Source: Pseudomonas putida (GTDB taxonomy: Bacteria; Pseudomonadota; Gammaproteobacteria; Pseudomonadales; Pseudomonadaceae). Taken from it: a stretch of 64,000 nt of DNA. Every line of letters begins with the position of its first letter. Positions within the stretch are counted from its first letter, which is position 1. The stretch spans positions 1,798,001 to 1,862,000 of the forward strand of contig NZ_CP113097.1 in the NCBI RefSeq assembly GCF_026625125.1, in the 5' to 3' direction. The notes beneath the pieces are model-generated. The model did not search any database. It had not been told where the DNA came from and saw nothing but the letters and a program-made list of their open reading frames with translations. Shown here piece by piece: positions 29,475 to 51,004 of this stretch. Made by a program: the position numbers and the translations under genes.

Positions 29475-30050
29475 CTAGCCCAGCATCTCGTGCATGGCGA
29501 TGATCTGCTCAGCCACCTGGATCAGCTTCTGCTGGCGGCTCATGGCCTGACGGCGCATCAGGGTGTACGCCTGTTCTTCATTACAGTCTTTCATTTTCAT
29601 CAACAGGCCCTTGGCCTGCTCGATACGCTTGCGCTCGGCCAGTTGCTGGTCGCGGGCCTGCAGCTGGGCCTTGAGCGCCTGGTCGCTCTCGAAGCGGGCC
29701 ATGGCTACATCCAGGATGGGCTGCAAGCGGGCGGCGTGAATACCCTCGACGATGTACGCGCTGACCCCGGCCTGGATCGCCTGGCGCATCACCCCGGGGT
29801 CATGCTCGTCGGTGAACAGCACAATTGGCCGTGGCTGGTCGCGGCTGACCATCACCACCTGTTCCATCACGTCGCGGTCGGGTGAATCGGTATCGATCAA
29901 TACCACGTCCGGGTGCACCATTTCGACGCAGGCCGGCAGGTCGATGGTTAAGTCTGGCGCCTCGATCACCTCGAAGCCGGCCTCGCGCAGTGCAGCCTTG
30001 AGGCGGCCGAGTTTGTTCTGGGTATCGTCGATCAGCAGGATGCGCAGCAT
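29475..30050 (-). CDS. nasT: NasT, ANTAR-domain antiterminator
   Basis: A 191-residue response-regulator-like protein. The receiver domain (MLRILLIDDTQNKLGRL; VVLIDTDSPDRDV) is followed by a coiled linker and a C-terminal ANTAR RNA-binding domain (about 130-185, with KGLLMKMKDCNEEQAYTLMR). NasT binds leader RNA hairpins to prevent termination when freed from NasS by nitrate. The start is ATG 30048-30050, eleven bases after nasS. Its predicted RNA target lies directly downstream, before nasA. Confidence 0.93.
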   Translation of the reverse strand: MLRILLIDDTQNKLGRLKAALREAGFEVIEAPDLTIDLPACVEMVHPDVVLIDTDSPDRDVMEQVVMVSRDQPRPIVLFTDEHDPGVMRQAIQAGVSAYIVEGIHAARLQPILDVAMARFESDQALKAQLQARDQQLAERKRIEQAKGLLMKMKDCNEEQAYTLMRRQAMSRQQKLIQVAEQIIAMHEMLG

Positions 30051-49256: not shown

Positions 49257-49688
49257 ATGTTCATCACACCAAACTTTACCCTGGAAGAGATGGTTGCCTC
49301 GCAGGTCGCCTCTCGCGAAGGGCTGGACAATACGCCACCGCAGCAAGTCATCAGTAACCTTCATCTACTCTGTCACGCCCTTGAGCAGGTGCGAGCATTG
49401 TTCGGTCTGCCGGTGATCGTCAGCAGTGGTTACCGCTCACCCGCGCTGAACAAACGGATAGGCGGCTCTTCGCGTAGCCAGCACCTGCACGGGCTGGCTG
49501 CAGATTTCAAGATATTCAGCATCAGTCATCGGGAGGTGGTCCGCCGGGTGAGCGCAAGCGCAGTGAATTTCGACCAGATGATCCTCGAGTTCGACAGTTG
49601 GGTCCACCTGTCGGTAACCCCGGACGTGCCGCGTCGTGAAGTGCTGACCATCCGCAGGGGCACAGGCTACCTGCCAGGTTTGCGGTGA
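49257..49688 (+). CDS. Peptidase M15-type protein, phage-endolysin-like
   Basis: A 143-residue single domain with zinc-binding motifs of the M15_3 family: SGYRSPALNKRIGGSSRSQH, HGLAADF (SxHxxGxAxD) and WVHLSV. Relatives are phage endolysins or D,D-/L,D-peptidases. It has no signal peptide, so on its own it would stay in the cytoplasm, as phage lysins do before holin action. No holin or phage structural gene is adjacent. It is followed by the SOS-box gene 70 bases on. Confidence 0.82.
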   Translation: MFITPNFTLEEMVASQVASREGLDNTPPQQVISNLHLLCHALEQVRALFGLPVIVSSGYRSPALNKRIGGSSRSQHLHGLAADFKIFSISHREVVRRVSASAVNFDQMILEFDSWVHLSVTPDVPRREVLTIRRGTGYLPGLR

Positions 49689-49700
49689 GGCGTGGATCAA

Positions 49701-49730
49701 TTGACGGCGGGGTGTGCAAGTTCGTATGCT
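49701..49730 (+). promoter_or_regulatory. Sigma-70 promoter of the SOS-box gene
   Basis: TTGACG at 49701-49706, an 18-base spacer, TATGCT at 49725-49730. It starts 12 bases after the preceding stop, and the LexA box overlaps the -10. Confidence 0.65.
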
Positions 49731-49744
49731 GTATATAAATACAG
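49729..49744. promoter_or_regulatory. LexA (SOS) box
   Basis: CTGTATATAAATACAG, which differs from the gammaproteobacterial consensus CTGTATATATATACAG at one base. It overlaps the -10 and start site of the promoter at 49701-49730 and lies 15 bases before the ATG at 49760, an ideal repressor position. Confidence 0.85.
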
Positions 49745-49759
49745 TATCGAGGTAAGCCC

Positions 49760-50068
49760 ATGCTCAATGTCGAGCAACTCAAGTACAGCGTCAACCGCAT
49801 GCCGGTGGAGCGGGTATGTGACGCCGTGCTGGAACTGCGCCTCGAAGGCCTGGTCACCGATGACCGTACGCCGTTCGGCAAGGTCCATTTCAACACCTGC
49901 TTCGCCGAGATCGAGGCCCTGTTTCAGCGGGCCGGGTACCATCGAGGGTTGGATGTGGTGGGTTACCAAGGCTTGCTGTATGCGCTCTATGATCCAGGCC
50001 GCTGGGAGCCCGTGCAGGTTCTGCGCTGGCTGAAGGCACGCAGCGAGGCCGTGGTCCAGGCTGGTTGA
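49760..50068 (+). CDS. SOS-controlled protein of unknown function
   Basis: 102 residues, soluble. I do not recognise the family. It begins MLNVEQLKYSVNRMPVERVC and continues with a helix-rich region (VCDAVLELRLEGLVTDD), CFAEIEALFQRAGY and a Trp-rich end (RWEPVQVLRWLKARSEAVV). GAGGT lies seven bases before the ATG. The strong LexA box at its promoter predicts induction by DNA damage. It does not resemble SulA, YebG, UmuD or DinI. The RluA-type gene follows after 51 bases and might be co-transcribed. Confidence 0.82.
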   Translation: MLNVEQLKYSVNRMPVERVCDAVLELRLEGLVTDDRTPFGKVHFNTCFAEIEALFQRAGYHRGLDVVGYQGLLYALYDPGRWEPVQVLRWLKARSEAVVQAG

Positions 50069-50119
50069 GCTGGCGGGGTTGGGGGATAATGCCCGGCCCT
50101 GCCTGCCCCGAGTCTCGCC

Positions 50120-51004
50120 ATGACCACGCCATTCGACCCCGCCCGCCAGCAAGCCAGCACGGTCTGCCTGCCACCTGGCAACTGGGCGACGGTACTTGAT
50201 TGCCTGTGCGACCATTTCAAGGCGATCGAGCGTGCCCAGTGGCTTGACCGTTTTGCTCGTGGCCGGGTGCTCGACGCCGAAGGCCGGGCGGTCGCAGCCG
50301 ACCTGCCTTACCGCCGCGGCATGCGTCTGCACTATTTTCGCGAGGTGCCCAACGAGCGGCCGATCCCGGTTCAGGAAACCATCCTGCATGTGGATGAGCA
50401 TCTGGTGGTGGCCGACAAACCGCATTTTCTGCCGGTTACGCCGACCGGTGAATATGTCGAACAGACTTTGCTGCGCCGTCTGATCCGGCGTCTGGACAAC
50501 CCTCACCTGGTGCCGTTGCACCGCATCGATCGGCATACCGCAGGGCTGGTGTTGTTTTCGGCCAACCCGCAAACCCGCAGCGCGTACCAGCGTCTGTTTC
50601 CCGAGCGTCGTATCGACAAGCGCTATCAGGCCATCGCCCCGGCCTTGCCCCAGCATGATTTTCCGCGGGTGCATAAAAGCCGCCTGGTGCATGGCGAGCC
50701 GTTTTTCCGTATGCATGAGGTACAGGGCGACGATAACAGCGAAACCCTGGCCGAGGTGCTGGAGAAGCGGGGGGAGTTGTGGCGCTACGGCCTTTCGCCG
50801 GTGACTGGCAAGACCCATCAACTGCGGGTGCACATGGCGGCACTGGGGGCGGGGATTTGTAACGACCCGTTCTATCCAGCGCTTCTCGAGGTGGAAGATG
50901 ATTACCAGCGGCCATTGAAGCTGCTGGCACACAGCTTGCGCTTTGCCGACCCGTTGACGGGGGACGAGCGGTTTTTCGAGAGCCGCCTGACCCTCGGTTG
51001 GTAG
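50120..51004 (+). CDS. RluA-family pseudouridine synthase
   Basis: 294 residues. It has a short S4-like N-terminus, then ILHVDEHLVVADKPHFLPV and the catalytic HRIDRHTAGLVLF (the second Asp-containing motif HRxD, nucleophile Asp), and SPVTGKTHQLRVHMAALG near the end. It isomerises uridine in rRNA or tRNA; the exact site cannot be told from sequence. Confidence 0.88.
   Translation: MTTPFDPARQQASTVCLPPGNWATVLDCLCDHFKAIERAQWLDRFARGRVLDAEGRAVAADLPYRRGMRLHYFREVPNERPIPVQETILHVDEHLVVADKPHFLPVTPTGEYVEQTLLRRLIRRLDNPHLVPLHRIDRHTAGLVLFSANPQTRSAYQRLFPERRIDKRYQAIAPALPQHDFPRVHKSRLVHGEPFFRMHEVQGDDNSETLAEVLEKRGELWRYGLSPVTGKTHQLRVHMAALGAGICNDPFYPALLEVEDDYQRPLKLLAHSLRFADPLTGDERFFESRLTLGW

Follow-up and report, generated by a model that had tools for sequence, protein, structure and literature searches.

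A LexA box accompanies PA0922-family genes in the Pseudomonadaceae and predicts SOS control of a 102-residue protein in Pseudomonas putida

We suggest that a small gene of Pseudomonas putida, at positions 49,760 to 50,068 of the forward strand of the window (here the whole 64,000-nt stretch analysed, positions 1,798,001–1,862,000 of the forward strand of NZ_CP113097.1, assembly GCF_026625125.1), is controlled by LexA, and we put the probability of this at about 0.95, based on the conservation of its LexA box and on the reported regulon membership of its P. aeruginosa counterpart, PA0922. Judged from sequence comparison, the gene appears to belong to the SOS core of the Pseudomonadaceae. In the SOS response, RecA bound to single-stranded DNA brings about the self-cleavage of LexA, upon which the SOS genes are transcribed.

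The open reading frame (102 codons, with the stop codon ending at 50,068) is preceded on the same strand by a −35-like hexamer, TTGACG (49,701–49,706), and a −10-like hexamer, TATGCT (49,725–49,730). The promoter scan found these as an 18-base-spaced pair agreeing with 9 of 12 consensus bases, the one promoter-like pair in 49,500–50,300 against a mean of 0.2 in shuffled sequence. The LexA box, CTGTATATAAATACAG (49,729–49,744, forward strand), was recognized by sequence match and by its retention beside the gene in related genomes. It differs from the consensus CTGTATATATATACAG at one position (15/16), and 15 bases separate it from the ATG at 49,760, both as first described; a ribosome-binding site, GAGG (49,749–49,752, forward strand), lies 7 bases 5' of the ATG. 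The box had also been said to overlap the −10 element, and an overlap does exist, but it amounts to merely 2 bases, the box lying mainly on the stretch just 3' of the −10. From known SOS biology, LexA seated there would block the promoter, and after DNA damage RecA on single-stranded DNA would cause LexA to cut itself, so that the gene would be transcribed. The closeness of the box to consensus suggests tight repression.

The genes on either side are in the same orientation. Upstream, an M15 peptidase gene (49,257–49,688; PF08291, E 1.6e-27), which ends 40 bases 5' of the box, is an accessory neighbour; it resembles phage endolysins (phrog_894, E 5.8e-39), and in some lineages it is inserted between a glutaredoxin-like gene and the PA0922-family gene. 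Downstream, an RluA-family pseudouridine synthase gene (50,120–51,004; PF00849, E 7.3e-29) starts 51 bases past the stop codon. The scan of 49,500–50,300 gave no terminator-like site, and read-through from the 102-codon gene into the RluA-family gene is possible; such a gene is found near the PA0922-family gene in 76 of 129 loci. We considered whether it might be the mutator RluA of P. putida and rejected this: that report (PMC7822408) places the catalytic Asp at residue 57, and the 294-residue window protein has its HRIDRHTAG motif near residue 138, so that it seems to be a different RluA-family enzyme.

Sites of the loose LexA pattern, one mismatch allowed, show no enrichment within the window (16 observed, 23.1 expected), and the window by itself therefore does not prove the box; decisive support comes from the comparison across genomes, controls included. 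At the scale of the single-contig genome (5.86 Mb), there are 54 exact CTGT-N8-ACAG sites and 20 matches to the reversed control, and among the 50 listed of these 54 sites CTGTATATAAATACAG is the best match to consensus (15/16), two further sites scoring 14/16. Fourteen genomic LexA-like sites were fetched, and placement at an SOS gene was recognized for some of them. Among the other high scorers, CTGTCTTTTTATACAG precedes lexA itself and CTGTAAATTCATACAG precedes dinB, and CTGTATGTGTATACAG separates umuD and umuC from an SRAP-like gene (SRAP read by eye). The umuD-umuC pair and the SRAP-like gene diverge from this last box in the P. putida genome itself (G000:C1:3678598-3680300; L207, L219); published work, by contrast, describes P. 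putida as being without Pol V. Further good LexA-like sites lie at 2895595, 3355882, 3879029, 2243843 and 933685 of G000:C1. The genome carries two LexA genes with PF01726, one of them with its own box at the start. A second exact CTGT-N8-ACAG in the window, CTGTTCTTCATTACAG (29,571–29,586), has a poor core and is probably a chance match.

For the comparison across genomes, 100 loci were drawn from 172 gene-bearing genomes of the genus (30 best-scoring, 30 mostly the most divergent, and 40 across the listed range), and the best 16-mer was sought from 200 bases upstream to 30 bases inside the gene. Exact CTGT-N8-ACAG was found in 92 of the 100, at distances of 30 to 185 bases, and a near-exact GTGT-N8-ACAG (GTGTTTATTTGTACAG) in four more (L041, L044, L051, L054). 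The automatic count had been 94 exact boxes; two of these were chance matches, CTGTGGCTGGGCACAG, within an upstream gene (one of them at L041), so 92 is the number used. The four loci with no nearby box (L073, L075, L083, L096) have the gene as the last member of a umuD-like operon that is itself headed by a LexA box, 521–531 bases upstream in L073, L083 and L096 and 1793 bases upstream for L075, as read from longer flanks of the same region (L171 and L248). Once operons are counted, then, a LexA-type box stands over the gene in 100 of 100 loci. Five control palindromes were found in 0/100 of the upstream regions, and the LexA box in 0/100 of the gene interiors. In the 27 close loci (L001–L027) the flanking bases vary while the box and TTGACG are nearly fixed, the hexamer being the same at 6/6 bases when the loci are aligned on the box.

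Analogous counts elsewhere gave comparable results. In the sister genus (g3) the exact box is present at 24 of 24 loci. Among 80 named loci, which share genomes with the 100 and are not independent of them, 76 have the exact box within 200 bases, and the other four (L169, L170, L171, L180) are of the umuD/umuC type. For 20 of the 27 genomes that lack the gene, the region upstream of the RluA-family gene was examined, and in 19 no CTGT-N8-ACAG lies within 1500 bases; one keeps such a site, CTGTATCCCTTAACAG. The search for homologues with the same box that had been proposed as a check was thus answered by 92 exact, four near-exact and four operon-headed cases in 100, together with 24/24 in the sister genus. 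With the box retained alongside the gene and the counterpart PA0922 reported in the LexA regulon, the original prediction of SOS control is strongly supported.

The box also appears to belong to the PA0922-family gene and not to its neighbours, as it is the gene alone with which it is conserved. The gene occurs in three chromosomal settings, with the box retained in each, and because the gene tree groups by neighbourhood, the gene has evidently moved between surroundings on a few occasions, each time with its box. When 129 loci were tested for a set of upstream neighbours, the nearest one proved to be a divergent lipoprotein gene (51 loci), a glutaredoxin-like gene (46), the M15 gene (24), umuD (three), umuC (one) or divergent dinB (two); none was recognized at the remaining two loci. 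At the window locus the neighbours are the amt, glutaredoxin-like, M15 peptidase and RluA-family genes. Where the small divergent lipoprotein-like gene is the neighbour (L033, L199 and 49 others, 51/129 loci), it has the intergenic region and the box in common with the PA0922-family gene; the L199 copy has no Pfam match. No antitoxin-like partner gene recurs beside the family in the 129 loci.

The rare umuD-type operons deserve a separate description. The umuD-like genes found in an operon with the PA0922-family gene lie at L248:2831-3268 and 1569-2858 (G126) and at L249:1941-2408 (G073). Compared with the UmuD of the window's own P. putida genome, the catalytic-lysine position holds V in L248 and L in L249; at the serine position L248 has G, and L249 has S. 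In the operon of L075, umuC accompanies umuD, and in L249 no umuC stands between the umuD-like gene and the PA0922-family gene. The umuD(C) genes look like insertions that separated the PA0922-family gene from an older promoter.

The identity of the gene follows from its relative in P. aeruginosa. The homologue there, WP_003086015.1 (104 residues, NZ_CP131792.1), is 73% identical over 96 of the 102 residues, and the gene order is dinB (reverse strand), tRNA-Met, the homologue (forward) and then mprF (forward), mprF lying two genes on; P. aeruginosa mprF is PA0920. A LexA box, CTGTATATTCGTACAG, lies 69 bases 5' of the ATG in L244, with the identical 16 bases in L247, and it sits together with tRNA-Met between dinB and the divergent homologue. 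The record is 847 kb long and typed as a conjugative plasmid, and it contains this chromosomal-looking dinB-PA0922-mprF stretch. In the literature, PA0922 is described as divergent from dinB, with a LexA box, and as a member of the LexA regulon with reference to Cirz et al. 2006 (PMC8944484), and dinB is given as PA0923 (PMC3224232). Since the homologue is divergent from dinB and PA0922 is so described, the counterpart is PA0922, and we regard the window gene as almost certainly the same gene, from sequence and gene order. Two other candidates from the literature, the P. aeruginosa SOS genes PA2288 and PA3414, were set aside when the dinB neighbourhood came to light. The two genes are alike in sequence, length and upstream LexA box, and differ in their neighbours, which are dinB, tRNA-Met and mprF on the one side and amt, glutaredoxin-like, M15 and RluA-family genes on the other. 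Two further reports record PA0922 as 3.7-fold up on an array after hydrogen peroxide (PMC1250226) and as a hypothetical protein with a value of 8.9 in a gene-chip table (PMC12431658). The gene had been presented as uncharacterised, which holds in that it matches no known SOS function, but not entirely, as the counterpart had already been credited to the LexA regulon in the 2006 reference cited above; SOS membership is soundly taken as already known by orthology.

The family is widespread within a narrow group. It is present in 172 of 199 genomes of the genus and in 24 of 25 of the sister genus, and its absence from the other 27 indicates that the gene is not essential to the SOS response. Re-searching 20 of these 27 with a profile gave five partial matches, the best at E 0.01 and none convincing. 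An order-wide search matched 15 of 390 genomes, all from one family (genera g1 and g3), with no match in three genomes from two other genera of the same family, and a class-wide search, scoring at most 13 candidates from each genome, matched one of 369, namely the P. putida genome itself. Among the order and class genomes searched, sequence matches to the family were thus found in the Pseudomonadaceae only. The genome of the window belongs to the P. putida group, the nearest named relatives being P. putida and its kin, with up to 99% protein identity. No homologue was found in 50,697 phage records and no relative in viral contigs; among 72,556 plasmid records a single one carries a homologue, amid chromosomal-type genes beside dinB. 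A dependence of the gene on dinB was not supported, as its presence does not track dinB: a dinB-type polymerase is found in 20 of 20 gene-less genomes examined, and G013 has the gene, yet its single dinB-type match is weak and ImuB-like.

No significant match to the 102-residue protein was found in NCBIfam, Pfam, PHROGs, PADLOC or PDB sequences, in agreement with the earlier statement that it fits no known SOS function. Pfam listed DUF3151 alone, at E 0.2. DinI, YebG and SulA are small LexA-controlled proteins, and the window protein has small size and (predicted) LexA control in common with them; it has no Pfam match to any of the three at E ≤ 5. Matches to Csm6_6H (10 of 40 relatives, best E 0.0058), to RPA_C (2 of 40, E 0.14) and, by profile, to RPA32 (E 0.85) were taken as chance. 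Across 134 diverse sequences 28 residues are invariant, among them H43, N45, C47, E50, E52, H61 and D65. Structure prediction, another of the checks proposed at the outset, gave a confident, compact helix-strand domain without a significant fold match: the model made from the 134 sequences has a pLDDT of 93.5 (three of the five models fall at 73–80; an earlier model from 40 sequences had 52.5), with helices at 16–29, 41–46 and 48–57 and strands at 31–33, 65–69 and 73–77. Against the PDB, Foldseek returned 0 of 363 rows at E ≤ 0.001, with TM of about 0.2–0.4; a viral structure library gave one row, an uncharacterised phage protein (E 0.005, TM 0.53).

We tentatively propose, at somewhat below even odds, that the product, once induced in the SOS response, serves as an adaptor for a conserved protein of replication or repair. 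It would be a small single-domain protein binding one strongly conserved partner through its near-invariant core, the candidates being a translesion polymerase, RecA or the replisome, and it would act as adaptor or modulator. This reading derives from the 28 invariant residues, the confident compact model, the approximately balanced charge of the protein, the position of E50 and E52 within helix 48–57, and a strongly conserved stretch that forms one face. A weak link to damage-tolerance polymerases comes from two unrelated settings, dinB being the neighbour in P. aeruginosa and umuDC preceding the gene in G126. The proposal goes no higher because polymerase neighbours are rare (dinB at 2/129 loci and umuD/umuC at 4/129, together 6/129), the umuD(C) genes look inserted, and the gene does not track dinB. 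The findings lean towards a protein-binding helper over other roles, without deciding the matter.

That the protein is instead a winged-helix DNA-binding transcription regulator, through which LexA would govern a second tier of damage genes, is in our view unlikely. The modelled order of elements does resemble that of a winged helix, the top Foldseek PDB rows include winged-helix proteins (ArsR, MarR-type, TubR, kleisin), and many database source names read "transcriptional regulator"; however, none of those rows is significant, the names are automatic labels, and neither the window protein nor any of 40 relatives is matched by a regulator model of Pfam or NCBIfam. Moreover, helices 41–46 and 48–57 are one residue apart, which makes a true helix-turn-helix doubtful, and the helix at the recognition position bears the invariant E50 and E52 where a DNA-reading helix would be basic. 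An SOS-induced inhibitor of growth or division, a SulA-like or toxin-like checkpoint protein, is improbable: the near-consensus box and strong ribosome-binding site do point to a tightly repressed gene with a high induction ratio, predicted by analogy with sulA, but no Pfam, PADLOC or PHROGs family matches, the sulA position just behind lexA is filled by an ordinary gene in this genome (read by eye), no antitoxin-like gene recurs, and conservation over the whole sequence is unusually high for toxins. A small enzyme whose substrate is a nucleotide or a damage product, and in which H43, C47, H61 and D65 are catalytic or bind a metal, would accord with the seven named invariant residues, but their invariance also fits a binding surface, and as no enzyme family or solved structure matches, we consider it a poor candidate. 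That the box arose by chance as a palindrome, or that a neighbouring gene alone makes use of it, is very improbable, for although the window has no more loose matches than chance would give, the box follows the gene and not its neighbours, the control palindromes are absent from all 100 upstream regions, and the box is lost in 19 of 20 gene-less genomes.

A bolder form of the adaptor proposal casts the PA0922 family as a manager, specific to the Pseudomonadaceae, of DNA-damage polymerases or of the stalled replisome, an adaptor partly in the role that UmuD has elsewhere. We think this a long shot, though it would explain the near-invariant core, the private LexA box, the dinB adjacency in P. 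aeruginosa and the few operons in which the gene stands behind a umuD-like gene that has lost some of its protease residues. UmuD and the S24 peptidases are likewise small proteins of the SOS response with a tie to a Y-family polymerase, and a umuD-like gene is co-operonic with the family in a few genomes; they are unrelated in sequence, however, the 102-residue protein having no S24 match. Also counted among the closest known systems is PA2723 of P. aeruginosa (PDB 6tcb).

Most LexA-controlled genes of Pseudomonas have a known job, and for the PA0922 family no published function was found in the open-licence literature. While the SOS assignment itself was already known, the present analysis adds that the window gene corresponds to PA0922, that its box is conserved throughout the family and that the gene has changed neighbourhood; it also adds the umuD/umuC operons and the confident model. 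The family thus becomes a precise target, a small and well-modelled protein present in 172 of 199 genomes of a genus in which damage-induced mutation bears on antibiotic tolerance and biodegradation.
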